64,000 nt of DNA, from positions 3,859,635-3,923,634 of the forward strand of contig CP139021.1 in the NCBI GenBank assembly GCA_034044135.1, given 5' to 3'. Of this stretch, positions 14,511 to 42,668 are shown piece after piece. How positions within the stretch are numbered: position 1 is the first letter of the stretch; every line of letters begins with the position of its first letter. The notes beneath the pieces are model-generated. The model had not been told where the DNA came from. It saw only the letters and a list, made by a program, of their open reading frames with translations, and made no database searches. The position numbers and the translations under genes are program-made. This DNA comes from Flammeovirgaceae bacterium SG7u.111. GTDB taxonomy: Bacteria > Bacteroidota > Bacteroidia > Cytophagales > Flammeovirgaceae.

Positions 14511-14551
14511 CGGCTATAGTACTTAGGTAAAATTCTGTAATATTTTGATTT

Positions 14552-14594: not shown

Positions 14595-14621
14595 TTCTTT
14601 GGAAATACAAAAAATGCTCTA

Positions 14622-15620: not shown

Positions 15621-15636
15621 TTTGAATAGCTAAAAA

Positions 15637-16749
15637 ATGAAACCAAAAATTATTATTGATACTAGCATTCTCAGAAAACATAAAACACTAAAGACTGATG
15701 CGATTTTACTATTAGCAGAATTATCAAAGCGTGAGTTTATAGAATTTATCATTCCTGAAATAGTTAGAATTGAGTTCTTATCACAACTCCAAGCTGAATT
15801 AGAAGAAGAGTATGACAAGATAATTAGCCATTTAAAGGCATTAACTCGAAAGTCTTTACTAAAAAACAACTCAATAACCTCTGATATTGAAAAATACAAA
15901 GCATTAAAAAATGAAGAGTTAAAGTTAATAGAAAGTAAATGGAGGAGCTTTCGCCGTAATAGCAATCTATCATATGAGAGTTATTATAGTGGCTTTCTTA
16001 TTTCGAGAGTATTTAATGATTATACTAAAGGTAACCCACCGTTTTCGTCAAAAAAAAATAGAAAAGATATTCCAGATGCATTTATCTACCATAATATAAA
16101 ATCAATCGATGGTAATAAATATTTCCTATGCAATGATCAAAATTTATCTAATGCTGTTATAACAATTAAAAACACTAAAGTTCTTGATTCTATAGATAAA
16201 TTATTTGAAGAAGAAGAATTAAAAGCTATAATTTCCAAGTTAGAAAGTTTAGGAAACGTCAAAAGCACTATTGATCTTCTGATAAAACATGAGAAAGAAG
16301 TCAAGTCTATAATTGAATTTCATTTGTTATCTTCAGTACCTTTTGAGTTACATAAGAGGTCTGGAAAAGCACCTGACCTTTTAACAAAAATCTCAACAAT
16401 AGAAGAACCTGAAATCCACTACTCGAAGGCAAGGTTATATGAAGATGGAAGTATTTTTATTCCCTTTGAATTAAAAATAGATTGTGTACTTGAGGAGGAA
16501 ATATCTATTGACAAATTTGAATCAATAAAAAGCAGTCCTTTTTTTTATCTAATTACAAATTACATTGAATTTATAGAGTTCGAAGACAAAGTCATTCAAC
16601 AAGATACATTTAGTGGAACTATTACTTCTTCACTAAAGATAAAAAAAGAGAATTCTTTCGATAGTATTAAAGAAAGTATTGATATTCTAGATTTTACTAG
16701 CGATTGGCTTGTTTCTAAATCTTTAAATAAATTAGCAGATGATATGTAA
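15637..16749 (+). CDS. PIN-like domain protein (DUF4935 type)
   Basis: Protein of 370 residues. The N-terminal half has PIN ribonuclease features: IIIDTSIL with the first acidic residue at the end of strand 1, IPEIVRIEFLSQL with the conserved Glu, KDIPDAFIYH and LCNDQNLSNAV with the remaining acids. The C-terminal part (from about residue 190) has no recognisable domain. This architecture matches DUF4935 PIN proteins, which may cleave RNA and are often found in accessory regions. No antitoxin gene is adjacent. The gene is markedly AT-rich compared with the DUF2235 gene 16 bases upstream, suggesting insertion. Confidence 0.65.
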   Translation: MKPKIIIDTSILRKHKTLKTDAILLLAELSKREFIEFIIPEIVRIEFLSQLQAELEEEYDKIISHLKALTRKSLLKNNSITSDIEKYKALKNEELKLIESKWRSFRRNSNLSYESYYSGFLISRVFNDYTKGNPPFSSKKNRKDIPDAFIYHNIKSIDGNKYFLCNDQNLSNAVITIKNTKVLDSIDKLFEEEELKAIISKLESLGNVKSTIDLLIKHEKEVKSIIEFHLLSSVPFELHKRSGKAPDLLTKISTIEEPEIHYSKARLYEDGSIFIPFELKIDCVLEEEISIDKFESIKSSPFFYLITNYIEFIEFEDKVIQQDTFSGTITSSLKIKKENSFDSIKESIDILDFTSDWLVSKSLNKLADDM

Positions 16750-16855
16750 TTGTTATTAACCCTCACAATCACACTTCGCCCTTGACTTCTAAACTCGATA
16801 TTCGTTAATCCTTGTTCGTGCATCATTTTCAGAAATATAATCAACCTCACTCCCA

Positions 16856-17113
16856 TTGAACACTACAGATTGGACAGGATTTATCGGCGTATTTCAAATC
16901 CTTTTGGCATATATCCTGAATGTGACTGGGAAGATTGGAAAGGATGATGTCGCTTTTATGGTGTTGAACCTGACAGGGGCAGGCATGGCTTGCCTCGCTT
17001 CCATCCTGATGGACTATTGGCCCTTTATTTTATTGGAAGGTGTATGGGCACTTGTATCTCTTATCTCATTGATAAAACATATAAGCAACCAAAGCACCGA
17101 CAGTACGAAATGA
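16856..17113 (+). CDS. Small membrane protein, CBU_0592-like
   Basis: Protein of 85 residues with three hydrophobic segments (FIGVFQILLAYILNV, AFMVLNLTGAGMACLASIL, FILLEGVWALVSLISLI). The LNLTGAGM and EGVWALVS patterns fit the CBU_0592-type small integral membrane proteins, whose role is unknown. The start is TTG at 16856; no ATG gives a complete protein. No partner gene is evident. Confidence 0.6.
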   Translation: MNTTDWTGFIGVFQILLAYILNVTGKIGKDDVAFMVLNLTGAGMACLASILMDYWPFILLEGVWALVSLISLIKHISNQSTDSTK

Positions 17114-17237
17114 TTATTAGGAGGTGGTCGCATTAAAAACAATTTCAATCAAGCATTTTGTTTTATCTCGGCAGGAGTATTTAAACTTGCAGCAGAATAG
17201 TTTAGTTCAACAACCATTTCATTCAGACTAAGGCAAA

Positions 17238-18269
17238 ATGAATCTTTCAAAAAACATATTATACATTTTTATTTTTTTCATATTGACAGCTTGCGGAAGC
17301 GAATCGGGCAGGCAGAACAGTACCATTCGTTTTTTCCAACGTGCCAAACTACACTTGGAAAAAGATGAATACAACGATGCCATCCGCTTTCTGGACCAAG
17401 CCATTCAAGAAGACAGCAACTTTGTAGATGCATACAACAATCGAGGGATTGCCTGGTTTGGCCTGAACGATTACATCCGTGCAGTGGAAGATTACAATAG
17501 TGCCATTAAAATTGATAGTGCTTTTGGAAATGCATATTACAACCGAGCCAATGCTTGGTTTGAACTTGGGGCATTTGAAAAAGCTTTGGAAGACCTAAAC
17601 CAAGCAGTCGTCATTTTACCCGATTCGGTGGATGTATATACGAACCGAGGTACGGTTTATCAAAAGCTAGGTCAGTTTGACGAAGCAATTGCCGACTTTG
17701 ACAAAGTGATAGAGCTTAACCCCGAAGACGTCACTGCCTACCTTAACAAAGGCTCTATTTATTTTTTCTTTAAAAAGTACGACGAAGCGGAAAGTCTTTT
17801 CAAAAAGTCGCTGGAAATGGGTGAAAACTCAGATTTTGCCTACAACAACCTAGGCTTGCTCATGGCGGAAAAAGGGGATTATGAAACTGCTCTCGATTAT
17901 TTAGAAAAAGCCCTAAAAATAAAACCCGCTGCTCCGTATTACCTCAACAATCGAGGCTTTGTAAAACTAATGCTCGGTCAGCTAGAAGCAGGGCAAGAAG
18001 ATATTAAAAACTCTTTTTTCTACGACCCAAACAACGCGATGGCTTTTAGAAACCTTGGGATTTACCAATACAAATCGGGCGATAGCACTGCTATTAGCAC
18101 TCTCCAAAAAGCCTTGGAGAAAAATCCTGCCATGGATGATATTCACTTTTACTTGGGCAATGCTTATTTCACCTTTGGCGATAAAACAAAGGCTTGCCAA
18201 GAATGGGAATTTTCCATTGAAAAAGGGGAAAAAGAAACGATAGAAGACTTCGAGAAGAATTGTAAGTAA
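17238..18269 (+). CDS. TPR lipoprotein
   Basis: Protein of 343 residues with a lipoprotein signal (ILTAC, Cys19) followed by about eight tandem tetratricopeptide repeats, visible as periodic AYNNRGIAWFGLNDY, AYYNRANAWFELGAF, VYTNRGTVYQKLGQF, AYLNKGSIYFFFKKY and so on. The repeats form a protein-binding superhelix on the periplasmic or outer-membrane side. Such proteins act as assembly or scaffolding factors; no specific partner can be named. Confidence 0.88.
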   Translation: MNLSKNILYIFIFFILTACGSESGRQNSTIRFFQRAKLHLEKDEYNDAIRFLDQAIQEDSNFVDAYNNRGIAWFGLNDYIRAVEDYNSAIKIDSAFGNAYYNRANAWFELGAFEKALEDLNQAVVILPDSVDVYTNRGTVYQKLGQFDEAIADFDKVIELNPEDVTAYLNKGSIYFFFKKYDEAESLFKKSLEMGENSDFAYNNLGLLMAEKGDYETALDYLEKALKIKPAAPYYLNNRGFVKLMLGQLEAGQEDIKNSFFYDPNNAMAFRNLGIYQYKSGDSTAISTLQKALEKNPAMDDIHFYLGNAYFTFGDKTKACQEWEFSIEKGEKETIEDFEKNCK

Positions 18270-28216: not shown

Positions 28217-29533
28217 ATGGAAAAAGGCAAAGTAATATTTGAAGTAGAGGGCGGTCATGCACTCAAAGGCGAAATAGAACCACAGGGAGCGAAAAACGAA
28301 TGTTTGCAGATTCTGTGCGCAATTTTACTCACCAAAGAAAAAGTTACGATCCATAATGTTCCCAATATTTTAGATGTGAACAACTTGATCACCCTCTTGG
28401 GTGACTTGGGCGTGGAGGTGAACAAACTGGACGAACACACTTACGAGTTCAAAGCCGAAAATGTAGACATCCACTACCTCGAAACCAAAGAATATAAAAA
28501 ACAGGCTGCATCGCTCCGAGGGTCAATCATGATCTTGGGCCCACTTTTGGCTAGGTTTGGCAAGGCAAAAATCCCTCGCCCAGGCGGGGATAAAATTGGA
28601 AGGCGTAGGTTGGATACACACTTTTTAGGTTTCCAAAAACTGGGCGCTCGTTTCGAATACAAAGACGACGATAAATTCTACACCATAGATGCTACTAATT
28701 TGCATGGCACGTACATGCTCTTGGACGAGCCTTCGGTAACGGGTACAGCCAATGTGCTGATGGCAGCTGTTTTGGCTAAAGGAACAACCACCATCTACAA
28801 TGCTGCTTGCGAGCCCTACATCCAGCAGCTTTGCAAAATGCTGATCCGCATGGGGGCTAATATTCAAGGAGCAGGCTCGAACTTGCTTACAATTGAAGGA
28901 GTTGGTTACTTGGGCGGAACTAGCCACACCCTCCTACCCGACATGATCGAGATTGGAAGTTTCATTGGCATGGCTGCCATGACCAGCTCGGAAATTACTA
29001 TCAAAAACGTAAGGCTAGATCAGCTTGGGCTTATCCCTTCTGTTTTCCAAAAACTTGGTATACAAATGGAATTTCGCAACGATGACATTTATATTCCTGC
29101 TCAAGAAAATTACACCATCGACACATTTATAGATGGATCGATGCTGACCATAGCCGACGGTCCTTGGCCGCTTTTTACGCCCGACCTCCTCAGTATCATT
29201 TTGGTGGTGGCTACGCAAGCAAAAGGCACAGTACTCATTCACCAAAAAATGTTTGAAAGCCGCTTGTTCTTCGTAGACAAACTCATTGACATGGGCGCTC
29301 AGATCATCTTATGCGATCCGCACCGAGCCAACGTGGTTGGGCTTAATAAACAGATAAAGCTAAAGGGAATCAACATGAGCTCGCCTGATATCAGGGCTGG
29401 GGTTTCTCTGCTCATAGCCGCACTTTCGGCAAAGGGAAAAAGCACCATTTTCAATGCAGAGCAGATTGATCGTGGCTATCAAAATATTGACACGAGACTC
29501 AAAGCACTTGGGGCTAAAATAGAACGGGTTTGA
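28217..29533 (+). CDS. murA: UDP-N-acetylglucosamine 1-carboxyvinyltransferase
   Basis: First committed enzyme of peptidoglycan synthesis, adding enolpyruvate from PEP to UDP-GlcNAc; cytoplasmic, 438 residues. Motifs are GAKNECLQ (Lys26, Asn27), RGSIMILGPLLARFG, PRPGGDKIGRRRLDTHF and the C-terminal SPDIRAGVSLLIAAL. The loop residue that is the catalytic, fosfomycin-reactive Cys115 in E. coli is Asp125 here (PGGD instead of PGGC). Enzymes with Asp at this position are known to be active and fosfomycin-insensitive. The alignment is unambiguous by motif. Confidence 0.94.
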   Translation: MEKGKVIFEVEGGHALKGEIEPQGAKNECLQILCAILLTKEKVTIHNVPNILDVNNLITLLGDLGVEVNKLDEHTYEFKAENVDIHYLETKEYKKQAASLRGSIMILGPLLARFGKAKIPRPGGDKIGRRRLDTHFLGFQKLGARFEYKDDDKFYTIDATNLHGTYMLLDEPSVTGTANVLMAAVLAKGTTTIYNAACEPYIQQLCKMLIRMGANIQGAGSNLLTIEGVGYLGGTSHTLLPDMIEIGSFIGMAAMTSSEITIKNVRLDQLGLIPSVFQKLGIQMEFRNDDIYIPAQENYTIDTFIDGSMLTIADGPWPLFTPDLLSIILVVATQAKGTVLIHQKMFESRLFFVDKLIDMGAQIILCDPHRANVVGLNKQIKLKGINMSSPDIRAGVSLLIAALSAKGKSTIFNAEQIDRGYQNIDTRLKALGAKIERV

Positions 29534-29843
29534 TATGAACAACAAAACTTAATTACTTGGTCAACCTTAAACCTTATACTAAAGTTTTAAGGTTGACACC
29601 AACTCATAACAACTATTCAGACTCTAAATTTCATCCGACCACTACCAATCATTTCAGAGGCGAAAATTCAGAAGTAAAAAAATCATCAATATCAGAATAT
29701 TTATTCATCCCCTTTCACAAACACTGTTTAAAAGTGTATTTTTTCTATGTTAATTCATAAAAGACTTGGTTTGTTCCATAATAAAGGGTAAAATTATAGG
29801 AATATAGATAAATTTAATTCCACAATTAAAGTCTTTAACTAGC
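29534..29843. other. AT-rich gap with a hairpin between murA and the giant NTPase
   Basis: Gap of 310 bases. A perfect 12-bp stem, GTCAACCTTAAA (29560-29571) and TTTAAGGTTGAC (29586-29597), has a 14-base loop and no T-run. It may be a weak murA terminator. The remaining 240 bases are AT-rich and presumably hold the promoter of the NTPase gene. The short frame from 29557 is not convincing. Confidence 0.5.
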
Positions 29844-32800
29844 ATGTCCCAGCGCAAGGATGAAGAAAAGAAATTCCAGTATTCCAAGATTAAAAACATA
29901 CTTATAGAACTCCCGGGCTTCCGTTACTTTCACAGCCCATCTGCAGTTGGTAAGGTAGATGATCGTTTCATTGGCAGGGAAGCTATCATAAAAAAGTTAA
30001 GATCAATTCTCTTAAATGCAGATACTAAATCTGGTGCATACTTAGTTGCAGGATTCAGGGGCATGGGTAAGACCAGTTTTGTGAACCATGTGTTGGACAG
30101 CATAAATAATACCTATTTTAGAAAATCTTTCAGAGCCAGAATACCACTAATAGCTATTCCCATGATTATTTATGGGTTTGCTGAGGTTGATTTATTCAAT
30201 TTTTATGGAGAACCTGAATTCCCTAGTTCCCTACAAAACATTTTATATCTTTTATCGCTACTCACATATATTATTATTTTATTACCCTTCTTGTATTTCA
30301 TTTATCTTAAAGATGAAATAAAGAAAAAAGCGCAAGGTTTTAAAAAGCTTTGGTTTAAAAAAATTCAAATATCATGGAATAAAACCTTACTAAGCAGGGC
30401 TTATCGTTACTGCTATGCGCTTTCATTGATATATTTATTTGAGATCGGTCATGTTAAATTATTGTATCTGATTTATTTGGTGTTTTTTGGCTTGGCGTTA
30501 CTCATATACAACTTTAAAAATTACCGTAATAACTTCAATAGAAATGAGAAGTGGAAAATCAAAATTTCTTCTTTTACACAACTTTTCTATTTTCTTTTAA
30601 ATATAGCATTCATAACAATATGTGGATACATACTGCACAGATTGTACTCGGTTGAATTGAAAGATAAGAACGTCCATTTACCTGTGATAGTAACTCTTGA
30701 TTTTCTAATAACAAAATACGTTTACTCTCACCTGGAAAATCTTAGCTATAAGAGGCGTGGGCAGATGCCTGTTTTTAAAGAATTTGTAGATAACCTAGGA
30801 AAAAAAATTAGGAGTAGCCAAAAGATATTCATCAAACTCAATCTTGGTAGAAGCGGTATGGAAGAAGGAAGAGTTTTGACTTTAATTCATAAAGCTGTTC
30901 TAGCCGAGTATAGGAAAATAAATCTCCCCTTTCTATCAATGTTTCGCACCAAAGGACAGTTGATTATTTTTTTAACTGTCATTTTATCTGCCTATATTTT
31001 TTATTCATCAGAGCGTATGTCGTATATGCTAGAAGAGGACATTAGGAATGCTCACTTGGTTGAGTTTTTCCCAAGTCAAGCGTTTTTGAAAGACTCAGTG
31101 GTGATGGTAGATCCAGTGGTATTTAAAAATTTAGATATATTCAATAGTTGCTGCTATTCAATCACTAAGGGAGACTCAGTAACGTATACTCATATAGATG
31201 GCTTCATTCACCGCTACGATTCACCCCAGCTTGCTTCTGCTGAAAATAATGGATGGAAATCACATGCTACTGCCTCCCTAAGACTTGTAGATTATACGAT
31301 TTTCTCCGTTAACAATTGGTTCTATCATTTCACAAAAAACATTCTAAACATCATCATACCATTTTCAAAAAAAAATAATCCTTGGGCTCTAACACTCCCA
31401 GTTCTAGACTACATTTATTTGTTTATCGTATTCCTATTTTGGATATTCCTTGTTGCCTTTACAAAACTTTTAACAAGTTTTGGAGGTGTAGTGACACATA
31501 GAAATATTTATAATCGCCTCAGAAGGTTGGATGAAATGATAGAGGCACAAGTGTCAAAAGAACATACTTCTGAATTAGGACCTAAAGGGAAAGGAATTGG
31601 AATTTTCAGAATTGGTATAAAAAAACAGTCTAGGTACCGGGTCAAAGGTAGTAGAGATATCGAATCTGAACTCATTGAAATCTTTGAAGATATGCAACGT
31701 GTTCCCAAGTTTTTTGGACGACCAGAGTTTGTTTTCATTTTTGATGAGCTAGACAAGGTACAACCAAGTTACACAGATGTAGAAAGGAATAACAAAGAGA
31801 AATTCGAATACGAGGACGAAAGAGGCAGCCTTTTTACAATAGAAAATTCCAGAAAAAGACAAGAGATGATTGCCAAACTACTCTCAGGAATGAAGCAGTT
31901 CTTCACTACTGCCATGGCAAAGTTTATTTTCATTTCTGGACATGAAATGTACGATGCGGCACTTGCGGACACTTCTGACAGAGAATCTTTCATTGGGAGC
32001 ATATTCCATGATGTAATATACGTTGATAGCTTTTACTCCGATGAAAAAGAGGAACAAAGTTCTGATATTACTGCTCTCACTGAAAAGTATGTTTGCAGGA
32101 TTTTATTAAATGAGACAGGTTATACAGATGCTAGCCTAGAAGGGGTCTCCGCTTATTTTAAAGAGCATGCAAAACGCCTTTTTCATAATACCGAGAATTC
32201 TCATTTTCTTGAGAAAAAGAGTGAGACTAACAACTACCATCAACGACTGATCTTGTCTAAAACCATGATGAGCCTGCAATTCTTCATCGTATATCTGGCC
32301 TACAGAAGCAACGGTGCCCCAAAAAAAATGACAAAGCTTTTTGAGAATCATATAGAAGAATGCAAAGCGGATGACCAAAAGTTGACAAATCCCAATTATC
32401 TTGTTGTAGGTACTATTACTAAGCCAAGCTTCTACTTAAATCTAGATTTCAAAGCTCAGTACAAACATGGTCTTACGACTAGGCTTTTCCATCCCTTCAT
32501 GTTAGCTAAAGGACGTTATGTTACTCACTTGAGTGATAAGCTTTTGGTCTCAACTTCCTTTCTAATAGACCACCTTTATAAGTATCATAAGTATGGCTTC
32601 TCATGGAAAAATATTGAACATTCACCCGAAATAATTAGCATTAACAAATCGCCACAGTTGAGAGGGTTTATTGAGGAACTGATCTTCTATTTGTCGAATA
32701 CCCATCTTAACGAAATTGTCAGTGGTCTTTACAATTTTAAGTTCGATGGGAAAATTCAAGCAGAAATTGAGTATGTGTCGAAGATATCTGAATTGGAAAG

Positions 32801-35696
32801 TGCTGCATTTAATTTCACTCTAGACGAATCTTTAAAGACCAAGCGATACTTCCTGAGAAAACTCTCGGAACTACGCAAGGTATACAGTGAATTACAACCC
32901 TATGGAAAGTACATTCATTCCATAGGGCTAGTGAACATGACACTTGGCGACCTCTATTACTACGACCAAGAGTACGATGTAGCGATATCCTACTACCAAG
33001 ATGCCATACAAGAATTAAGGTATAAACGAGGCAACAAACCAGACCCTTCTATTTCTATATTATTGATAAACAATATGCTTAAGCTGGGCTTAACTTTTGA
33101 GAGAAAAAAAGACTATACCTCTGCTTTGAACACCTATACCGATCTTACAGAAAGTGTTATAGATTTTAGAGCAATCGATGTAAAGAAATATGGTTATAAA
33201 GAATTAGTACTTGCAAAACAGGATTTCGAAAAAAACAGCAAGAAAATAGGGACACTTGAAAATGAAGTATTTCGAAAAAACCCTTGGTTATTAAATAGCA
33301 ATAACAAACTTTCCAAATGGGGTGAACATATATTTACTACAGGTAGAAGTGCCGACATGATAGTTAAAAATGAAAAAATAGAGGGGGAGAAAAAGGATAT
33401 TTTCCACTCTTTTATCAATAATTTTATTCACACACTACCTTCTATCAATAAAGAAAAGTACTACAACAAGCTAACGGTCTTTGAAAACCTGCGGTTGATG
33501 TACCAACCAATCCTCACAAAGCTACAGCTGATTGAAAAACTCTCAGGAATAACAAGGTCGGATTTGAAACGATCAGGGCAAGAGTTCGAATACCTAATCA
33601 AGGTTGCCAATAAACAGGAAAAGTTCACAATAACCTCCGAATATTACAACAAAGTTGGTGATCTACTATATTATAAGAATGGCACTTTAATACCTGGCCA
33701 TAAAAATAATGGTGATAGTAATGTATTACCTAAACCTATTGCTGCAAAGAATGAATATTTTAAAAGCCTACTCATTATTTACCATAGGTATTTATCAAAA
33801 AGCGATACTGAACCATCATTGGATTTAGATAATAAACTTAAAAACGAAAAACTTTTTAAAGATGACTTAAGAGTGTACTATAGAAATAGAAATAAGGATT
33901 TTCATGCCGATTCATTTGAGTGTGAAAGTCAATTTCATATAATGAAAGTTATATATGAAACTTTTTCTTTAAACAAAAGGCCCTTAGCTGAAATACATAT
34001 TAATTCAGTTCTAGTTACATTAGCGAATACTCTATCAGATTTGGGAGATACTTTTTTATCTCTTGATAAAGAACAATTTGGACAATGGGATATTGACATG
34101 ATTTTGAGTGCATTAAAAAAAGAAGGAAATGAATGTCCCATTTCGCTACCAATCCCTGTCAAAATTGATAATAACTATTTGAACTATGCAGTTCTATCCA
34201 ATATATATGCAGCAACTGTTTATAAGAAAGCGGGGAAACATCAAAAAAGCGCATTTCAATATATAAAGATACTATACGCTATCCATATCTACTTAGCTTC
34301 TGAAAAACATAATAATATTAACAATAACCTAAAAAATAAAATATCGGATCATAATAAGTTGCCCGAATTAGTAAACAAACTATTCGAACTTGCGATCAAA
34401 GATTATCACTTTTCCACAGAACATTCCTATAGGCTGGAAGAAGAGCGTTATAAAGAAATATTTTCCATCTCACAACAACCTACTAGTGGCATCTCTACTG
34501 ATTTGGGACGTCTTATGTTTGAATACTCTGCCAATAATGCCGATATCAGAGAATTAGTCATATTATACTGTGCCATTGATGCTCAGCTTACCAAAGATGA
34601 GGACACAAGTATAAGATTTCCACTTGACAAGAATATAATTAATGCCTACAATAGCATGGGTAGTATGTATGACAGGATATTAGAACTACTATTAAAGGGC
34701 TATGTGAACAAAAAGCATTTCAGATATAACAAAAAACATTATGGGAATCATATTTATATCATAGAAAAGTTCAAAAAATTTCTTGACAATATAAAAATTG
34801 ACGGGGAGACACTGAGTTATGAACATACTGCCTTAAATTCTTTTTTAGAAGCTAATTTTTTTACACACAACAATAGCCTGATTGAAGAAAAGTTCAAAAC
34901 CTTTTTGAAATCTATAAAAGTAAGAGGTAAAAATATACATCAACTAAATAGCATCCCCAGGAGTCTTTTACAACAAATAACATCTCCTATTATCCGTTTC
35001 AATCCCAGTTGCTTACGCAAAGTATTACTTGATTTACATAAAGCTATCTTCTCCAAATATAATCTAACATTTAAGGGGAAATCGTTTAAGAATATTCAAT
35101 TTTTTGAATTAGAGAGTTTTAATAAAATCAATCATCCTCCATCAATCAATAATTATTCTAATAAAAAGTATGAATATCTAATATTAGATTCTATTTTTTG
35201 TCTGTTTGATGTATTGAACTTTGCAAGCCTTTTTAGTAACCGTTATATAGTTAGGCATTCTGTGTTGGCTCACGCACATAAAGAAATGGGATTTTGGTGT
35301 GGACAATTGTGGCATTATGTAAAGGTAATGGATGGCGAAACTGTCAACTCTATAAAAAAAGGAAGTACTAGATTGCGTATGGAAGTAAATCTTGACAAAC
35401 TTATTGGAAAAAAAGAACTCAAGTACTTAAGCAAATATTACCATTACGAACAAGCTATTTCCCATTACGAAAAAGCTAAGCAGATGCACTCTGCAGGTGA
35501 AGCTTATACCCACCAACTGGACAGTATGTATTATCTAGATGATGACTTCAATGACGAACTGAGCCATTTTTTCGCAGCACTTGAACGTTTCAAAATACAA
35601 TTGGGCATTGTGGATAGTAACATAGAAGAACTACAGAAAGAGCTCGAAAAGAGTGAACTTTACAACCCCAAAAGGTATACTGACTTGAAAGTCTAA
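29844..35696 (+). CDS. Giant membrane P-loop NTPase, KAP-like topology, TPR-containing tail
   Basis: Protein of 1950 residues. Walker A is GFRGMGKTSF (70-79), just after an FIGREAIIKKL segment as in STAND/AAA+ proteins. Walker B is FVFIFDELDK (629-638), with a later KFIFISGHE strand (693-701) and RSNGAPKKMTKLFENH (821-836), resembling the NPRRIKRF sensor region of KAP NTPases. Between Walker A and B lies an insert of about 550 residues with roughly six or seven hydrophobic helices (about 97-115, 131-154, 190-223, 244-266, 371-389, 521-541) and a probable external loop (about 395-500). TPR-like helices occur at 1020-1100; the rest of the tail is helical and unrecognised. Much more AT-rich than neighbours and adjacent to an IS cluster, so probably acquired. 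Function unknown; anti-phage or stress signalling is a hypothesis. Confidence 0.75.
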   Translation: MSQRKDEEKKFQYSKIKNILIELPGFRYFHSPSAVGKVDDRFIGREAIIKKLRSILLNADTKSGAYLVAGFRGMGKTSFVNHVLDSINNTYFRKSFRARIPLIAIPMIIYGFAEVDLFNFYGEPEFPSSLQNILYLLSLLTYIIILLPFLYFIYLKDEIKKKAQGFKKLWFKKIQISWNKTLLSRAYRYCYALSLIYLFEIGHVKLLYLIYLVFFGLALLIYNFKNYRNNFNRNEKWKIKISSFTQLFYFLLNIAFITICGYILHRLYSVELKDKNVHLPVIVTLDFLITKYVYSHLENLSYKRRGQMPVFKEFVDNLGKKIRSSQKIFIKLNLGRSGMEEGRVLTLIHKAVLAEYRKINLPFLSMFRTKGQLIIFLTVILSAYIFYSSERMSYMLEEDIRNAHLVEFFPSQAFLKDSVVMVDPVVFKNLDIFNSCCYSITKGDSVTYTHIDGFIHRYDSPQLASAENNGWKSHATASLRLVDYTIFSVNNWFYHFTKNILNIIIPFSKKNNPWALTLPVLDYIYLFIVFLFWIFLVAFTKLLTSFGGVVTHRNIYNRLRRLDEMIEAQVSKEHTSELGPKGKGIGIFRIGIKKQSRYRVKGSRDIESELIEIFEDMQRVPKFFGRPEFVFIFDELDKVQPSYTDVERNNKEKFEYEDERGSLFTIENSRKRQEMIAKLLSGMKQFFTTAMAKFIFISGHEMYDAALADTSDRESFIGSIFHDVIYVDSFYSDEKEEQSSDITALTEKYVCRILLNETGYTDASLEGVSAYFKEHAKRLFHNTENSHFLEKKSETNNYHQRLILSKTMMSLQFFIVYLAYRSNGAPKKMTKLFENHIEECKADDQKLTNPNYLVVGTITKPSFYLNLDFKAQYKHGLTTRLFHPFMLAKGRYVTHLSDKLLVSTSFLIDHLYKYHKYGFSWKNIEHSPEIISINKSPQLRGFIEELIFYLSNTHLNEIVSGLYNFKFDGKIQAEIEYVSKISELESAAFNFTLDESLKTKRYFLRKLSELRKVYSELQPYGKYIHSIGLVNMTLGDLYYYDQEYDVAISYYQDAIQELRYKRGNKPDPSISILLINNMLKLGLTFERKKDYTSALNTYTDLTESVIDFRAIDVKKYGYKELVLAKQDFEKNSKKIGTLENEVFRKNPWLLNSNNKLSKWGEHIFTTGRSADMIVKNEKIEGEKKDIFHSFINNFIHTLPSINKEKYYNKLTVFENLRLMYQPILTKLQLIEKLSGITRSDLKRSGQEFEYLIKVANKQEKFTITSEYYNKVGDLLYYKNGTLIPGHKNNGDSNVLPKPIAAKNEYFKSLLIIYHRYLSKSDTEPSLDLDNKLKNEKLFKDDLRVYYRNRNKDFHADSFECESQFHIMKVIYETFSLNKRPLAEIHINSVLVTLANTLSDLGDTFLSLDKEQFGQWDIDMILSALKKEGNECPISLPIPVKIDNNYLNYAVLSNIYAATVYKKAGKHQKSAFQYIKILYAIHIYLASEKHNNINNNLKNKISDHNKLPELVNKLFELAIKDYHFSTEHSYRLEEERYKEIFSISQQPTSGISTDLGRLMFEYSANNADIRELVILYCAIDAQLTKDEDTSIRFPLDKNIINAYNSMGSMYDRILELLLKGYVNKKHFRYNKKHYGNHIYIIEKFKKFLDNIKIDGETLSYEHTALNSFLEANFFTHNNSLIEEKFKTFLKSIKVRGKNIHQLNSIPRSLLQQITSPIIRFNPSCLRKVLLDLHKAIFSKYNLTFKGKSFKNIQFFELESFNKINHPPSINNYSNKKYEYLILDSIFCLFDVLNFASLFSNRYIVRHSVLAHAHKEMGFWCGQLWHYVKVMDGETVNSIKKGSTRLRMEVNLDKLIGKKELKYLSKYYHYEQAISHYEKAKQMHSAGEAYTHQLDSMYYLDDDFNDELSHFFAALERFKIQLGIVDSNIEELQKELEKSELYNPKRYTDLKV

Positions 35697-35749: not shown

Positions 35750-36445
35750 ATGAAAAACAAAATAATCCTTCTGACAGGAGCCACCTCAGGAATTGGCAGA
35801 AGCCTTGCCAAACAATTAGCAGCCGAAGGGGCAATTTTAGCCCTGTGCGGTCGCTCAGAAGAAAAGATGGCTTCCCTTCTAGAAGAGCTTTCACTACCAA
35901 AAGGTCAAATATTCTCTAAATGCTTTTCCATCACTTCCGAGGAAGAAATCATCCGCTTTGTGGAGGAAACAAACCAAGAGCTTGGAAACATCGATACGTT
36001 GATCAACTGTGCAGGAGCAAACTCGGCACGGGGGAAGGTAGAAGAAATGAAAACCGAAGATTTGGACTACATGTATGCGCTCAACTTCCGTGCTCCCATG
36101 ATTTTTATGAGAGAAGCGTATAAAAAAATAAAGGCAGTGGAAAGCGGAACTATCGTCAATATCCTCTCTACCGTCTGCCTTTTTTCCAATGAAGGAATTG
36201 GTGCTTATACCGCCACTAAATCGGGGCTAGATTCCCTCACAAAAGTATTTCGCAAGGAAGCCCGCAAAGATGGGGTTAAAGTAATCTCTGTCTATCCTGG
36301 CGGTGTCGACACCGACTTCAGAGCCGCTGACCGACCCGAATACCTCAGCCCAGAACCTGTAGCCGAATCGATCGTTTCTATGCTCAAGCTACCTGCCGAG
36401 GTGCACGAGCTAGTGCTCAGACCGATGGTGGAGGAAAATTTTTAA
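35750..36445 (+). CDS. Short-chain dehydrogenase/reductase
   Basis: Classical SDR of 231 residues. The cofactor loop is TGATSGIG (residues 9-16), followed by NCAGAN (86-91), the catalytic Ser140 in NILST, and Tyr153/Lys157 in YTATK. The R at position 35 (LCGRSEEK) favours NADP. It lacks a C-terminal substrate-specificity extension, so the substrate cannot be inferred. Its base composition is typical of the window, unlike the upstream giant gene 53 bases away. Confidence 0.88.
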   Translation: MKNKIILLTGATSGIGRSLAKQLAAEGAILALCGRSEEKMASLLEELSLPKGQIFSKCFSITSEEEIIRFVEETNQELGNIDTLINCAGANSARGKVEEMKTEDLDYMYALNFRAPMIFMREAYKKIKAVESGTIVNILSTVCLFSNEGIGAYTATKSGLDSLTKVFRKEARKDGVKVISVYPGGVDTDFRAADRPEYLSPEPVAESIVSMLKLPAEVHELVLRPMVEENF

Positions 36446-36675: not shown

Positions 36676-36975
36676 ATGAAACAGTACGAAAAGGGATTTA
36701 AAACAATGATAGTGGGCCTGCTCGAATCCGGACAACCAGCCAGGCAAGTGGCGGAAGACTACGGTTTGAGTGCGAGCATGATAAGGAGATGGCGAAGGGA
36801 GTCGAGGGGCGGAAAGGAAGCCTTCACCGGAAAGGGGGTGGCCTCCCTGACACCCGAGCAAAAGAAGATACAACAATTGGAAAAAGAACTTCGGGAGTCC
36901 AGGATGGAGGCCGAGATATTAAAAAAAGCCATCGGCATCTTCTCCCAAAAAGGCGGGACAAATACCGGTTCATAG
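36676..36975 (+). CDS. IS3-family transposase OrfA
   Basis: Protein of 99 residues with a helix-turn-helix (ESGQPARQVAEDYGLSASMIRRW), which binds the element ends, followed by a leucine-zipper region (IQQLEKELRESRMEAEILKKAIG) used for OrfA/OrfAB dimerisation. It appears intact. OrfB starts in another frame at 36978, as usual in IS3 elements that make OrfAB by frameshifting. Confidence 0.88.
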   Translation: MKQYEKGFKTMIVGLLESGQPARQVAEDYGLSASMIRRWRRESRGGKEAFTGKGVASLTPEQKKIQQLEKELRESRMEAEILKKAIGIFSQKGGTNTGS

Positions 36976-37503
36976 AGATGAACCGTCACCGGTATCCTGT
37001 TGGGAAAATGTTGGGTTGTCTAGGGGTGAGCAAAAACGGGTAAAGTGTGGGTGCCAGATATCACATATATAAGGGTAAATGACGGCTGGTGCTACCTGAC
37101 CAGTATACTCGACCTTGCCGACAGGAAAGTGGTAGGCTGGTCGCTTTCAAGCGATATGACGGCCGAGAACACGGTGATAGCGGCTTGGGTGAATGCGAGG
37201 AAAAACAGGCAGATAAAAGACGGGTTCGTCCTCCATTCGGACAGAGGTGTGCAATACGCCTGCAACAAGACAACAAGTGTTTTTTCTTTCAACAGAAAAA
37301 TGAAACAGAGCATGTCAAGGAAAGGAGACTGTTGGGACAACGCCGTGGCCGAGAGTTTTTTCAAGAGCATCAAGTACGAGTGGCTCAACAGGTTCGAGTT
37401 CACTTCCTACGACGAGGTTTACAGGCAGGTGGCATGGTATATCAACTGGTACAACACCAAAAGGCTCCACGCTAGCCTTGGCTACAAAACACCTAAAGAA
37501 AAA

Positions 37504-38637
37504 GGTTCTTTATGAATTTACTTGAAACTGGTATTTTGCAAATACAAAGTAAATCATCTTGATGAAGTTGTCTTTAGACCGAAACCCTCTAGCAACCCGT
37601 TTAATGATTTGAATTTTAGAATTGAGCCCCTCTAAGATACCGTTATTAATCTTAGATTGAGCGTATTGAACAATTCCATCAAAATGGCTTTTAATCGATT
37701 TAGTGATCGGATTGGTTTCCATGGTTTCCTGGGCGAGGTCCATAATGAAGCACAGTTGGGCTTTTAGCTCTTGAAATTGATCTTTCCGATAAAAAGTACC
37801 TATCCTTTCCATTGATAGTTCAATTTGAGCTTGAAAGCAATAAGCCTTTTCCCCAAGTCGATCTAGATGTTTGTAGAGAAGTTTGATCACATGCCATTTG
37901 TCAAAAGTAACCTTAGCCTGTGGAAAACACTGTTTGGCCCCCTTGATGAAGGCAGGGGACATATCAATGGAAATTTCTTCTACTGCTTCTGGATAGGGAT
38001 GATCTTGCTTAAATCGGGCAACACATTCAGAAGATCTACCTTCGTAACTACCGGGTAGTTGCCAAGTATCTAGATCAAAAAAGCTGGTGATGTATCCATG
38101 TCCCTTACGGGTAGAGGTTTCATCATAAGCAATCCTAGAGGCTGTATGCTGACTATAGTAGTCATCTTCAAGATGTTGGGTATAATGATGATAAATATGC
38201 TCAACCCGTTGGACTCGAATGCCAAGTGTCCTGGCTACTGCCGTAAAACAATGGTGGATATGCATCAAACGCATGACTTCTTGCTCAAACATAAGTGTGA
38301 ACCGCGAATAATCTCTAGAAAAGGAAACCTCTGCCTTAGATAGTTTACCGGTATCCCTATCTTTGTATATAGGAAGCTTACAATGGATAAAACAGCGGTA
38401 TTGAAAAAGCTTTAAGTGTTCCCAGGTACGGTCGTAATAGCTATGAATAGAGCATTTTTTTGGGGTAGCTTCAGGTGGAACCTCTAAATATAGATGTACG
38501 GTGTTGCTAGGCTCGTCACGTTCTGCTAGAACTAACTCAAAAGGTGGTAGAACAGGAAGTAAGTCACTAAATTGAGATAGAAAATTCATCGTTTTTTGAA
38601 TACAAAGATAAGCGTTCAAGTAAATTCATAAAGAGCC
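37504..38637 (-). mobile_element. ISL3-family insertion sequence, intact, 1134 bp
   Basis: Terminal inverted repeats start GGTTCTTTATGAATTTACTT on the left and GGCTCTTTATGAATTTACTT (reverse complement) on the right, matching over 23 bases with one mismatch. An exact 8-bp target duplication AAGAAAAA is present at 37496-37503 and 38638-38645, the length expected for ISL3. The near-perfect ends and intact transposase suggest this is the youngest insertion in the cluster. Confidence 0.93.
37510..38589 (-). CDS. ISL3-family transposase
   Basis: Protein of 359 residues from the ATG at 38589. The DDE core is visible: RIAYDETSTRKGHGYIT (first Asp), EEISIDMSPAFIKGAKQCFPQA (second Asp) with FDKWHVIKLL, and NNGILEGLNSKIQIIKRVARGF (Glu). 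An N-terminal zinc-finger/HTH region has Cys/His residues (KKCSIHSYYDRTWEHLKLFQYRC shortened form of the family). The stop codon lies in the left inverted repeat. No frameshift, so probably active. Confidence 0.92.
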   Translation of the reverse strand: MNFLSQFSDLLPVLPPFELVLAERDEPSNTVHLYLEVPPEATPKKCSIHSYYDRTWEHLKLFQYRCFIHCKLPIYKDRDTGKLSKAEVSFSRDYSRFTLMFEQEVMRLMHIHHCFTAVARTLGIRVQRVEHIYHHYTQHLEDDYYSQHTASRIAYDETSTRKGHGYITSFFDLDTWQLPGSYEGRSSECVARFKQDHPYPEAVEEISIDMSPAFIKGAKQCFPQAKVTFDKWHVIKLLYKHLDRLGEKAYCFQAQIELSMERIGTFYRKDQFQELKAQLCFIMDLAQETMETNPITKSIKSHFDGIVQYAQSKINNGILEGLNSKIQIIKRVARGFRSKDNFIKMIYFVFAKYQFQVNS

Positions 38638-38715
38638 AAGAAAAAGAAGCGGAACTTAATTTTATTCAATCAATGGCGGCCTAATCTTTTTGTACCAAAT
38701 TTTGTTGCAATACCA

Positions 38716-38803
38716 AAGATATCATTGACCGATTCGATCATCACCCTCTTCATGAGCCTATATCTTTCATGTAAGGGCACCAAGGCGTTCTTCATGTTCT
38801 TCC
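38716..38803 (-). pseudogene. IS982 transposase remnant, middle piece
   Basis: Minus-strand translation gives KNMKNALVPLHERYRLMKR followed by VMIESVNDI, the segment that precedes the HTRHRS motif in IS982 transposases. It continues in frame into the piece at 36475-36613 if the IS3 element is removed. Its 5' side is cut by the IS3 copy that begins near 38804, so the N-terminal two thirds of the gene are missing. Confidence 0.8.
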
Positions 38804-39252
38804 TGTTCCAAACCGCTTTAAAAGTTGGACTGGTTTAGTAGCCTAAAACCAGAAGTAGAATGATAGAAGACTTATTGAAGAACGCCCGCAGGACGGCAAG
38901 TGGCAGAAGGGTCCTAAGCTCGGCACAAAAAGCGACGGTTGTTGAGGATTGGGAAGGTTCCGGGCTATCTTGTCCCGAGTACTACCGCAGGTACGGGTTA
39001 ATCGCCAGCCAACTCTACAAATGGCGTTCGGACGCAAAATCAGGGGCAATCATGGGGATCAAGAATGATGGGGACCTACATTCCAGGTCAGAGCTGGAAA
39101 TGCTCAGGAGACAGAACGAGGAGCTTAAGAAAGCTTTGGGTGAGGCTACGCTGGACATCAAGATCCTAAAAAAAAAGCTGGAATGGGACGCACAGAGAAA
39201 CAAGAGGTAGAATCGCTATCCCAACAGTTCCAAGTAAGCATGAACAGGGCCA
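38804..39252 (+). mobile_element. Second IS3-type element, copy 1, 5' fragment
   Basis: Left-end sequence TGTTCCAAACCGCTTT then TTGGACTGGTTTAG, near-identical to the start of copy 2 at 39253. It contains the complete orfA and about the first 20 codons of orfB (MGRTEKQEVESLSQQF in the -1 frame), and ends where copy 2 begins. The remaining orfB is absent, so it is a dead remnant. It differs from copy 2 at many positions, so the two are not a recent tandem duplication. Confidence 0.75.
38860..39210 (+). CDS. IS3-family OrfA (copy 1)
   Basis: Protein of 116 residues with an HTH region (QKATVVEDWEGSGLSCPEYYRRY, SQLYKWRSDAK) and a coiled coil (LEMLRRQNEELKKALGEATLDIKILKKKLEW). The A-run CTAAAAAAAAAGC near its 3' end is the usual -1 frameshift site to orfB. 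Intact, but without a partner in this copy. Confidence 0.85.
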   Translation: MIEDLLKNARRTASGRRVLSSAQKATVVEDWEGSGLSCPEYYRRYGLIASQLYKWRSDAKSGAIMGIKNDGDLHSRSELEMLRRQNEELKKALGEATLDIKILKKKLEWDAQRNKR

Positions 39253-39308
39253 TGTTCCTAACCGCTTAAAAAGTTGGACTGGTTTAGTAGCCTAAAACCA
39301 GAACGATA

Positions 39309-39660
39309 ATGATAGACGATCTACTGAAGAATGCCCGCAGGACAGCAAGTGGCAGAAGGGTCCTAAGCTCGGCACAAAAAGCCACCATTGTTGAGGATTG
39401 GGAAGGTTCCGGGCTATCTTGCCCCGAGTACTGCCGCAGGTACGGGTTAATCGCCAGCCAACTTTACAAATGGCGTTCAGACGCAAAATCAGAGGCCGTC
39501 ATGGGAATCAAAAATGATGGGGAACTACATTCCAAGTCCGAGCTGGAGATGCTCAGAAGACAGAACGAAGAACTCAAGAAAGCTTTGGGAGAGGCTACGC
39601 TGGATATCAAGATCCTTAAAAAAAGTTGGAATGGGACGCACAGAGAAACAAGAAGTCGAA
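39309..39660 (+). CDS. IS3-family OrfA (copy 2), frameshifted at the 3' end
   Basis: The sequence is close to the copy 1 OrfA up to DIKILKK. There the A-run has seven residues instead of nine before G with one net base lost relative to the frame, so translation leaves the family sequence and continues to 39746 as unrelated residues (SWNGTHRETRS). The functional part is residues 1 to about 105. Whether this shortened A-run still allows ribosomal frameshifting is unclear. Confidence 0.7.
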
Positions 39661-40490
39661 TCGCTATCCCAACAGTTCCAAGTAAGCATGAACAGGACTA
39701 TCAAGGCACTGGGAGTTGCCAAGTCGACAATATATTACAAGCCTAAATCTTGCGTACTCCCCGCAAGAAGCCCACGCCTGAAGCAGGGGAGGCGATATTG
39801 GCTATCACTGGCAGGAAATCGACTTATGGGGTGCCCAGGGTGAGGGCTATACTGAAAAGGGACTATGGGATAGAGCTTTCCAGGTATATGGTGCATAAGT
39901 TCATGAAACAGGAGAACCTATTGGTGAAAAGGGGACGCAAGCGAGGGGCGGGCCGCCCGCATACAGGCAAGATAGCAGTAGGCCAGCCCAATACCAGATG
40001 GGCAAGTGATATTACTTCCATCAAGTGCTGGAATGGGCAGAAAGTACGCTTTGCGTACGTTTTGGACTGCTGCGACAGGTCCATCATTGCATGGACGGCA
40101 GGCATCCATATCCAGGCCTGCGACATCGAGCTGATGCTCCAGGAAGCAATATTTAACCGCTTTGGAGAGGCTCTCCCCGAAAAGGGAAAGCTCCAATTCT
40201 TGCATGACAACGGGCCTGAGTATATAGAGAATAACCTAAGAAAGCAGATCGCGTTATGGCATATTGCCGATTGCAGCACACCCCTTTACTCTCCGCAGTC
40301 AAATGGCATGTGCGAGGCTTTTAATGGCACTTTCAAAAGAGATTACGTATATGAGAGCTGTCTGGACAATCCTGAAATGATATATAGCCAGATACGGGGA
40401 TGGATAGATGAATACAACCAATATGCGCCACATTCGGCATTGGATATGAAAACACCGAATGAATTTTATAACTTTAAAACCGCTGCTTAG
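39630..40490 (+). pseudogene. IS3-family OrfB (copy 2) with a frameshift
   Basis: The orfB reading begins with MGRTEKQEVESLSQQFQVSM and runs to IYYKPKS at about 39746. It then shifts frame and continues from about 39750 to 40490 as RTPRKKPTPEAGEAI, STYGVPRVRAIL, WASDITSIKCW (first Asp), LQFLHDNGPEY (second Asp) and SNGMCEAFNGTFKRDY (Glu). The DDE core is intact in the second part (246 residues). The frame break near 39746 is either a mutation or an assembly error. Confidence 0.78.
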
Positions 40491-40937
40491 CTAGTCCAGT
40501 TTTAGAACGGAAAGAGCAACATCATACCCTACAATTTTTTTAGAATATGCATCGGTAACCAAGGATAGATACATGGGGTTTTCCCTATTCCCGATGTAGG
40601 TGATGTCAGATACCCAAACTTGTTCTGGCCCCTTTATATCAAGGTTTTCTATGAGGTTCTTATGCTTTCTAAATCGATGGTGGGAGTCGGTGGTGATATG
40701 GTATCGCCGTTTTGGGACGATAAGCATATGGTTTGCTTTCATGATAGCAAACAGCCTGTCCCTACCTGCCCCAAGTTCTCTGGGCCGGTCTTTAAGCATG
40801 TGATATAGTTTTCTTATCCCGGTACGTGGCATCTTCATACGGATTTTTTCTGCCATAGCCACTACTTGTGTGGCTATCTCTTGTTTTTGCTTAATCTTTT
40901 TGACGGATCGATAATAGGCCTGTCTATTGGTCCCCAA
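40491..40937 (-). pseudogene. IS3-family OrfB, truncated (third element)
   Basis: The frame encodes the HTH_21-type region (TNRQAYYRSV, MPRTGIRKLYHML) and the start of the integrase core VWVSDITYIGNRENP and SLVTDAYSKKIVGYDV. It then runs into the end of the adjacent element, adding foreign residues ALSVLKLD. The second Asp and the Glu of the DDE triad are missing, so it is inactive. The real orfB start lies upstream of the apparent TTG at 40937. Confidence 0.8.
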
Positions 40938-41428
40938 CAGTCTACAGGTCTGGGCTACCCCTTCTTTTTGTTCGATCTTGAATCGATCGACTGTTCGGGC
41001 AAAGACTTTTTTCTGATAGGCAGTTTGAATTCTTCTTCGGCCATGTCTATCATCATATCAAAGAAGACAGCTTTCTTATCTGCATGCTCCACTTGCTTCT
41101 CAAGCTCCTTCTTTTGCTTTTCAAGAAGCCTGACTTTCTGTTCAAGCTCATAGAGCTTTTGGTCTTTGGGCTTTGGCATCTTCAATGTAGACTTGTTCAC
41201 CCAGTCAAAGTTACCATATTTTCTCAACCAATTGGTGACCGTAGAGTGGGATTGGATCCCATACTTGCGCGCGGCGGCTTTTATGCCTAATTCTCCGCGC
41301 TCAACTTCTGCTACCACGGACAACTTAAAAGCATAGCTGTAATCTTGTTGGGTACGTTTAACATACTCGTTCTCTTGTCTTTTATTCATTACGTTACTTT
41401 TTGTGTATCGCTATTTCAGGACGGGACA
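40519..41428 (-). mobile_element. Third IS3-type element, 3' end missing
   Basis: The minus-strand element begins with TGTCCCGTCCTGAAATAG at 41428 (terminal TG) and carries orfA and the first half of orfB. It is cut at about 40519 by the right end of the neighbouring IS3 copy 2. The missing 3' half is not found elsewhere in the window. Confidence 0.72.
40955..41389 (-). CDS. IS3-family OrfA (third element)
   Basis: Protein of 144 residues: HTH (YAFKLSVVAEVERGELGIKAAARKYG, HSTVTNWLRKYG) and a long coiled coil (YELEQKVRLLEKQKKELEKQV). It is of a different IS3 subgroup from the two plus-strand copies. Intact but orphaned by the truncation of orfB. Confidence 0.85.
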   Translation of the reverse strand: MNKRQENEYVKRTQQDYSYAFKLSVVAEVERGELGIKAAARKYGIQSHSTVTNWLRKYGNFDWVNKSTLKMPKPKDQKLYELEQKVRLLEKQKKELEKQVEHADKKAVFFDMMIDMAEEEFKLPIRKKSLPEQSIDSRSNKKKG

Positions 41429-41432
41429 GAAA

Positions 41433-41526
41433 GAAAATAAAAAAGTCCCTTGGAAAACCAAGGGGCTTAGCGTGTTATTATATGTTTGTCAAATGGCAAT
41501 TAGGTAATCCTATAGATCAATTATTT
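41433..41526. repeat. 94-bp direct repeat, copy 1, containing a terminator
   Basis: This stretch is identical to 48323-48416 except for three substitutions, in the same orientation. It includes the stem CCTTGG-aaaa-CCAAGG extended by GGGGCT on one side, an intrinsic terminator on the minus strand, and then the shared unstructured tract GCGTGTTATTATATGTTTG onwards. Copy 2 directly follows the stop codon of the AEC permease gene, so copy 2 is in its native place. Confidence 0.9.
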
Positions 41527-41614
41527 GTAGCAGCTATAACTTGCTCTACTTCACCTTTTGATGCCACTATAGCCTGCTTGGGATTGGAGGGTTCTTGTGG
41601 CTTCCATTTAAGTA
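41517..41614 (-). pseudogene. C-terminal coding remnant beside the IS630 element
   Basis: The minus-strand frame gives LKWKPQEPSNPKQAIVAS then KGEVEQVIAATNN and a TGA at 41517, immediately before the terminator repeat. It abuts the IS630 insertion point and is probably the severed 3' end of the PepSY gene on the other side. Simple removal of IS630 with one TA leaves the two frames one base apart, so either a single-base change occurred or the native end is the alternative frame (YLNGSHKNPPIPSRL). Confidence 0.5.
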
Positions 41615-42668
41615 AGTGGACAAAAGAAACCGTATAATAAAAAAGCGTTAAATTAGTGAGATGGAAAGACGCTATATCACACTAAGTGCGTCAGAAGAGA
41701 TGGAACTAAAATCCTTGGAAAAGCATGGCGACTCTGGACGCGGGCGGGACCGTGCCCATGCGTTGCTGTTGAGCAACAAAGGGTATACGATAGATATGCT
41801 CAGGGACATATTCGAGGTGCGCAGGGCCACCATCTCGGAGTGGTTTGACAGATGGGAATCCTCAAAGGCGGCAGGATTGATGGATGCCCCCAAGAGTGGG
41901 CGGCCGAGTATCTATACGGTGGAAGAGCAAAAAAAATAGCATCCCTTGCCCGGGAAGGGCCTGTCACCTGTCTCCGTTTTTTTGCCCAAGAGGTCTCCAC
42001 CAAGTTCGGCAAGGACGCCTGTGGGAAGACCGTCAAGCGGATATTGAAAAAGTCGGGTCTTGTCTGGAAGCGCATGCGCAACTCCCTGGAAAACAACCGT
42101 GACGAAGAGATGTTCCGTTTCTTCCAACAAGAACTCGACTGTCTGGGACAGCAGGCCCGGCAAGGGGAGATCGACCTGTGTTATTTTGACGAGACGGGGA
42201 TAAGCCTGTGCCCGAACGTTCCGTATGCGTGGCAGCCCGTTGGCACGGCAAACAAGCTGCCCGCCCGGCGGGGCAACGGGGTCTCCGTCTTGGGCATACT
42301 CGACCCGTTGGCCAACACCTTCACGGGGAGCTATTACCATGGCGCGGCAAACTCGGCATGTGTCATACAGGTACTGGACAGTTTCTCCGAGACGATCAAG
42401 AAGAAAACCGTACTGGTCTTGGACAACGCCGCGATCCACAAATCCAAAGACGTAAAGGGATATATAGAAAAATGGAAGGGAAAAGGGCTGTACCTACAGT
42501 TTATCCCCGCATACTGCCCCGAGCTCAACCTGATAGAGGTCTTATGGAAGATGCTCAAGCACTATTGGATCAAACCAAGGCATTATACCTCCATGAAATC
42601 TCTCATTGAGGCCACCTTGTCAATCCTACAAAATTATGGAAAACAATATTCGATTTCTTTTGGGTAGG
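41615..42668 (+). mobile_element. IS630-family insertion sequence
   Basis: Element of 1054 bases flanked by TA on both sides (41613-41614 and 42669-42670), the IS630 target duplication. Inverted ends are AGTGGACAAAAGAAACCG and CCTACCCAAAAGAAATCG (reverse complement of the right end). The insertion is in the 3' part of the PepSY membrane-protein gene. The surrounding target reads TTTAAG-TA-CTTAAA, a palindrome. Confidence 0.85.
41661..42667 (+). CDS. IS630-family transposase, two frames joined by a probable -1 frameshift
   Basis: Frame 1 (41661-41939, 92 residues) holds the N-terminal HTH domain (GYTIDMLRDIFEVRRATISEWFDRW, SGRPS). Frame 2 continues after EEQKK at an eight-base A-run (about 41929-41936) with IASLAREGPVTCL, VKRILKKSGLVWKRMR, LCYFDETGISL (first Asp), VLVLDNAAIHKS (second Asp) and YCPELNLIEVLWKMLK (Glu). 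The catalytic DDE core is complete. An A-run frameshift is a known way to make full-length IS630 transposases, so the element may be active. Confidence 0.85.

Follow-up and report, generated by a model that had tools for sequence, protein, structure and literature searches.

A patchily distributed, membrane-inserted P-loop NTPase with a TPR-like tail: a possible single-protein immune switch

The 64,000-nucleotide stretch of DNA analysed here (the window) encodes a 1950-residue protein that we read as belonging to a new family of membrane-inserted, ORC/STAND-type NTPases, KAP-like in topology and not a member of KAP. Counting the window, the searches turned up eight copies in seven genomes, and the distribution of the family is patchy, with few and scattered relatives; the literature surveyed contains no description of this membrane-inserted NTPase family, which does not in itself prove that none exists. 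It is tentatively suggested, with somewhat less than even confidence, that the family represents a single-protein membrane immune switch in which the tail acts as the sensor and the inserted helices as the effector.

The gene is a single copy in its own 7.72 Mb genome, and the open reading frame and motifs reported in an initial annotation, made from the letters of the window, were verified: a 1950-aa frame at 29844-35696 (+), with GFRGMGKT at residues 70-77, FIFDELD at 631-637 and NGAPKKMTKLF at 823-833. The gene and its closest surroundings are arranged as follows.

28217-29533: murA, upstream of the window NTPase gene
29560..29597, + strand: inverted repeat 3' of murA with 16-base arms, a possible end of the murA transcript, absent from the terminator-scan list
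29844..35696, + strand: CDS of 1950 aa with ATG start, membrane-inserted P-loop NTPase with helical tail
35750..36445, + strand: SDR-family dehydrogenase gene, 53 bases 3' of the NTPase stop

The AT-richness ascribed to this copy is borne out by a GC content of 33.8%, compared with 40.5% in the rest of the window, the third lowest among 40 listed open reading frames, and by a GC3 of 33.4% versus 49.9% in murA. The gene had also been described as alone in its transcript, a claim that was not confirmed: the SDR-family dehydrogenase gene follows on the same strand after 53 bases, and no + strand terminator-like site between the two appears in the terminator scan; this dehydrogenase is not clearly a component of the NTPase system. 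The IS cluster noted nearby is real, with transposases of ISL3, IS3 and IS630 type at 37510-42667, past the intervening SDR gene, and two frames directly after that gene (36676-37515) resemble, by eye, pieces of an IS3-type element. When ten window neighbours were compared with PADLOC, a single match, to a generic TPR, was obtained. Elsewhere in the window, genes for a PhoD-like phosphatase, a protein with a Tle1-like phospholipase domain and a PIN_12 protein stand in a row at 13470-16749, the PIN_12 gene having the lowest GC content of the 40 listed frames (27.9%). An insertion of the NTPase gene next to murA is unproved: no empty site could be demonstrated from 15 murA regions of relatives, because none of the other 12 window proteins was matched there at 1e-10.

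The homologues measure 2171 aa (L007), 1434 aa (L002, from an uncultured Dokdonia MAG), 1446 aa (L069), 1876 aa (L070) and 1757 aa (L071 and L073 alike), and the remaining copy, L072, which shares a genome with L073, is broken by a stop. Gene content and the relative in the Dokdonia MAG point to Bacteroidota as the origin of the window. Across overlapping draws of genomes, a match was present in one of 97 (the window's own genome), two of 395, one of 294, three of 397, three of 395 and one of 42. Weaker matches with E values of 4.2e-5 to 8.7e-4 (five in the draw of 294, six in that of 397 and five in the draw of 395 with three matches) were set aside because their coverage was limited to profile positions 352 to 535 and nearly always to the TPR end. 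Identity of the window protein to each of the six further rows in the core alignment is 39.7-48.9%, and the core tree places L002 and L069 as sisters, with L070, whose genome was drawn from the family of L002, tentatively apart from them.

The elements follow each other in one order in all eight copies: the GR box and Walker A come first, then insert 1 (which may be reduced), strand and helix 2, and insert 2, and after these Walker B, the sensor-1-like strand, the GxP-type segment and the tail. In the window protein these elements are placed as listed below.

29964..30011, + strand: GR box, residues 41-56 (RFIGREAIIKKLRSIL), as in AAA_16/STAND-type NTPases, with the AAA_16 match starting at residue 41
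30051..30074, + strand: Walker A, residues 70-77 (GFRGMGKT), with invariant positions in 8 rows
30117..30818, + strand: insert 1, residues 92-325, four TM helices predicted from hydropathy (100-118, 133-151, 204-222, 247-265)
30819..30926, + strand: core strand 2 and helix 2, residues 326-361, with the model strand at 326-333, the helix from 341 and a conserved alignment block
30927..31634, + strand: insert 2, residues 362-597, TM helices predicted from hydropathy (371-389, 520-538)
31011..31400, + strand: extracytoplasmic loop predicted from hydropathy, residues 390-519 (130), with an FPSQ motif at 409-412
31728..31757, + strand: Walker B strand and motif, residues 629-638 (FVFIFDELDK), from alignment and model
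31920..31955, + strand: strand 4/sensor-1-like segment, residues 693-704 (KFIFISGHEMYD), from alignment and model
32310..32342, + strand: GxP-type segment, residues 823-833 (NGAPKKMTKLF)
32706..35693, + strand: helical tail, residues 955-1950, a TPR-like solenoid according to AlphaFold2 and structural matches
32934..33152, + strand: recognisable TPR repeats, residues 1031-1103, Pfam TPR_7 at 7.3e-5 and TPR_2 at 8.3e-4, both below the cut-offs

The Walker motifs are not chance occurrences, because G70, R72, G73, G75, K76, T77 and S78 of Walker A and D634, E635, L636, D637 and K638 of Walker B are invariant in all eight aligned copies; the same holds for G44 and R45 of the GR box. A GxP motif in the helical domain that follows the core is a defining mark of STAND NTPases, and the segment described at first as KAP-like, NGAPKKMTKLF, proved to be a conserved segment of GxP type with G824 and P826 invariant in the 8 rows. 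In the broken copy (L072:2-5710) one TAA lies close to this segment, and its 5' end is missing at the contig border. At the sensor-1-like position, residue 700 (31941-31943), the window copy carries His and all seven others carry Arg. The GR box is reached after only about 40 residues, which leaves no separate N-terminal effector domain.

Transmembrane helices were called by hydropathy (Kyte-Doolittle, 19 residues, cut at 1.5), and six of them lie between Walker A and Walker B in the window protein. The insertion of membrane helices into the P-loop domain, seen earlier as one large insert, is thus upheld, but it consists of two inserts, the first after the Walker A helix and the second between helix 2 and Walker B, separated by strand 2 and helix 2 at about residues 326-361. 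Insert 1 varies in its predicted helices, with four in the window, L007 and L073, six in L070, two in L071, three in L072 and none in L002 and L069, where it is reduced to 12 and 23 residues, respectively. Insert 2, by contrast, is present in all eight copies, with two predicted helices in seven and one, at this cut-off, in L071, where the insert is short (102 residues). Even helix numbers are expected because both inserts start and end at the cytoplasmic core, and the exceptions at this simple cut-off are insert 2 of L071 (one helix) and insert 1 of L072 (three). For the seven copies in which both insert 2 helices were called, that is, without L071, the loop between them measures 130 residues in the window, 327 in L007, 36 in L002, 35 in L069, 159 in L070, 152 in L073 and 162 in L072.

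This loop is central to an alternative close to the one first put forward, according to which the external loop would be the sensor of an event in the membrane or periplasm, relayed by the NTPase to the TPR tail, which in turn would recruit cytoplasmic partners. Such a receptor would be expected to vary, and the alignment does reveal strong variation of the loop in both length and sequence; moreover, the five of eight copies with a loop of at least 130 residues (130-327) have a PSQ motif in common after the first insert 2 helix, mostly as F-P-S-Q. We nevertheless regard this reading as unlikely, and external sensing fails as the shared function because the loop is short in L002 and L069 (two of the eight copies) and insert 2 is short in L071, yet core and tail remain. 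The compact L002 and L069 lack insert 1 and most of the loop and retain the NTPase, one TM pair and the tail, so the hairpin together with the tail is taken to be the conserved unit.

The fold of the core was modelled with AlphaFold2 for residues 1-1010 from the eight-row alignment, giving a mean pLDDT of 52 and a pTM of 0.48, with the core blocks at about 70-86 and the inserts below 50. In this model the strands 64-70, 326-333, 627-634, 693-699 and 723-727 fit one P-loop core in AAA+ order. Among the matches listed by VIA-align, where the absence of a family does not exclude it, were ORC (7jgr_A, Z 13.5, rmsd 5.0, 259 aligned), RdrA (8hr8_H, Z 12.3, rmsd 6.5, 276 aligned), TnsC (7ufi_1, Z 12.0, rmsd 4.3, 254 aligned) and CED-4 (4m9s_B, Z 11.2, rmsd 4.3, 229 aligned). 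The expectation that Walker A and Walker B pack into one NTPase core is therefore supported by a model of modest quality that aligns to ORC-type AAA+ proteins across residues 22-913, and an ORC/Cdc6-type AAA+ fold, of ORC/STAND type, is predicted for the core. Foldseek searches with the models gave no match at E <=0.001 (best E 0.026, for the core), a structure search of viral structure models gave none at E 0.001 or better, and sequence searches against solved structures yielded one chance-level hit and, in a further search, one hit at E 0.73.

For the tail a TPR-like solenoid is predicted. The TPR-like helices noticed earlier correspond to Pfam matches at residues 1031-1103 that are real, although below the cut-offs, and the remaining tail, as had been thought, is modelled as helical: the AlphaFold2 model of residues 955-1950 is nearly all helix (mean pLDDT 57.6, pTM 0.60). 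Its best structural matches are TPR proteins, led by 4a1s_A (Z 13.5, rmsd 4.1, 177 aligned), at scores near the level that the tool itself warns is common for helical models.

The relationship of this NTPase to known families lies close to what sequence comparison can detect. In Pfam, counted over seven members, AAA_16 matches all seven and NACHT three, all of them weakly, and KAP matches one at E 0.098. The window protein reaches E 1.1e-6 with AAA_16 (29.8 bits against a cut-off of 32.6, and 32.8 bits in the genome search). Over the members NACHT reaches 0.0073 at best and nSTAND1 0.21, and the match is confined to the P-loop part. Pfam KAP (PF07693) is not listed for it at E up to 10, and a KAP search of its own genome lists two other places and not this gene; a plain Pfam KAP member is thereby ruled out. 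Profile-profile comparison, in which reversed controls scored at most 1.6%, gave 93.0% for AAA_16 on the P-loop part and a local 63.8% for KAP with the first sets, and 81.6% for AAA_16 with a tighter set; a tighter KAP set without TM members reached 91.9% locally and 81.6% globally over 351 columns with low alignment confidence, and no match was obtained with a pair of TM-bearing KAP proteins (0.9%). These comparisons suggest that the P-loop is related to both KAP and AAA_16, at the limit of detection.

In topology the family resembles KAP: TM helices interrupt the P-loop domain between its two Walker motifs, and a GxP-type segment comes after the core. The position of insert 2 is the same as that of the TM pair in two of ten KAP proteins (L081 and L082, TM-bearing), which by reading follows strand 2 and helix 2 and precedes Walker B. 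The family differs from KAP in its additional insert, placed behind the Walker A helix, in its solenoid tail of about 1000 residues, and in that Pfam KAP does not match. STAND NTPases have a separate effector domain, usually N-terminal, and superstructure-forming C-terminal repeats. With those of AAA_16/NACHT type (Avs, bNACHT, TIR-STAND-TPR) the family shares the GR box, Walker A, the GxP-type motif and a C-terminal TPR-like solenoid, but it lacks the N-terminal effector domain and has membrane helices within the NTPase core instead. A report on RdrA of the RADAR system describes an AAA+ core of the ORC/Cdc6 kind in which a large insertion follows strands 2-3, takes the place of helix 2 and forms a soluble four-helix crown, together with a large helical C-terminal domain (PMC9994260). 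The present family has a similar core, a large insertion in the same region and a large helical C-terminal part, and differs in that its insert is transmembrane whereas the RdrA crown is soluble. At E up to 1 PADLOC returned 0 families for the window protein, its RdrA models included, and no deaminase partner of RADAR type was recognised among the scanned neighbour genes. The KAP/STAND hybrid proposed earlier thus survives in its TM insertion, its KAP-like insert 2 position, its GxP-type segment and its TPR-like tail, but not as formal KAP membership (one of seven, E 0.098). The family is filed as ORC/STAND-type with KAP-like topology because of a P-loop at the detection limit to both, the position of insert 2 and the insertion of RdrA.

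Turning to gene neighbourhoods, one of seven loci stands beside a recognised defence system, namely Pycsar. In L007 the NTPase gene is followed by same-strand genes of 112, 472 and 258 aa and by PycC (4.8e-108), which is co-oriented with the NTPase homologue at about 5 kb from it, and PycTM (5.8e-23) lies past a transposase. The transposase gene that splits the Pycsar pair (L007:18047-19938, L135:422-1990) has, by eye, the look of IS30, and the cluster is on the same strand as the NTPase. A PDC-S01 ATPase (2.9e-99), a defence candidate, is found near L071, and proteases with PADLOC similarity near L069. In the latter stretch the NTPase is flanked by two similar-looking pairs, read as TPR kinase and response regulator (L069:2494-5009 and 15020-17454), as well as by a subtilase and a trypsin-like protein. 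The surroundings of L070 and L073 are ordinary genes, and the L069 gene is not AT-rich (0.389 versus 0.358), so that a home of the homologues in housekeeping operons of normal composition, an arrangement that would speak against the first interpretation, is only partly excluded.

In three of the seven loci the nearest larger same-strand upstream gene reads, by eye, as encoding a secreted protein with a helical part and a barrel-like C-terminal part:

L002:1304-2959, same strand as the NTPase: secreted-looking gene with barrel-like C-terminus
L007:15223-16641, same strand as the NTPase: secreted-looking gene with barrel-like C-terminus
L069:6427-7638, same strand as the NTPase: secreted-looking gene with barrel-like C-terminus

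Such neighbours would fit a trans-envelope machine in which the NTPase of the inner membrane has a partner protein in the outer membrane and serves transport, envelope repair or surface display rather than defence. We think this rather unlikely, given that the three proteins, when considered as one family, are not detectably related to each other by blastp or hhalign, that two of them have no meaningful Pfam match, and that no such gene adjoins the NTPase in L070, L071 or L073. In the window an Omp85-type gene (at 26115) does lie upstream, but past murA and another gene, a separation by which it was rejected as a partner of the NTPase. The L069 frame overlaps another (5942-6442), and the two together read as one outer-membrane-type protein, which would reflect a frame change, a sequencing error or two genes.

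Mobile genes accompany several copies: the L002 stretch holds a HerA/mad8-like (HerA/TraD-like) ATPase and two genes named by reading, one for a recombinase and one dprA-like and seemingly truncated, an integrase-like gene lies about 4 kb from L071, and IS elements are found near the window copy and beside the L007 cluster. They would be accounted for if the NTPase were cargo serving the mobile element itself, for instance in transfer, stability or exclusion of related elements. This explanation appears quite improbable, since tblastn found no relative in 72,556 plasmid records or in phages, nor was there one in the viral contigs searched, and the stretches read around L070 and L073 contain no mobile genes.

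The reading that we prefer, an infection-triggered membrane switch, is proposed by analogy with STAND-TPR defence proteins, TM effectors and Tmn. TIR-STAND-TPR defence proteins are thought to sense through their TPRs and TM proteins to be effectors (PMC9122126), and Tmn is presented as a KAP NTPase with two TM domains and as a phage-defence system whose mechanism is unknown (PMC11846954). In the proposed switch, two insertions would hold an ORC/STAND-like P-loop NTPase core in the inner membrane, each of them starting and ending on its cytoplasmic face. One, the helical hairpin that separates helix 2 from Walker B, would be obligatory, and the other, a bundle following the Walker A helix, optional. 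A cytoplasmic ligand, most likely a phage product, would be recognised by the C-terminal solenoid (about 1000 residues), and its binding would release the NTPase to assemble into a complete or partial ring. The hairpins in the membrane may then come together, so that the membrane is disturbed or permeabilised and the infected cell stopped. A solenoid sensor with a hairpin anchor or effector is favoured over a loop sensor because the conserved unit of NTPase, one TM hairpin and solenoid can be read off the two short homologues. Against this reading count the 0 PADLOC families for the window protein, the single locus of seven beside a recognised defence system, the ordinary surroundings of L070 and L073, the lone generic TPR match among the ten window neighbours, the L069 gene that is not AT-rich, the missing N-terminal effector domain, the lack of relatives among the plasmids, phages and viral contigs searched, the lack of a demonstrable empty insertion site and the Foldseek result. 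Our confidence in the switch stays short of even because assembly, ligand or trigger, pore formation or membrane damage, and defence itself are inferred, and because only one locus in seven has a recognised defence neighbour.

A more specific possibility, which we consider unlikely, is a ring-forming ORC/STAND-type NTPase with a built-in pore, in which the TM hairpin occupies the position of the RdrA crown and, as the ring assembles, the membrane helices would themselves form a crown that opens the cell; the cytoplasmic solenoid would gate it, and the second bundle and external domain would tune the longer members. If this were true, immune sensor, motor and effector would be combined in one polypeptide. 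In any case, the two compact members, of about 1440 residues and with a single TM pair, and the several long ones form a natural deletion series in which the obligatory hairpin can be told apart from the optional bundle and loop; with this family the role of membrane helices inside a P-loop domain becomes directly testable.
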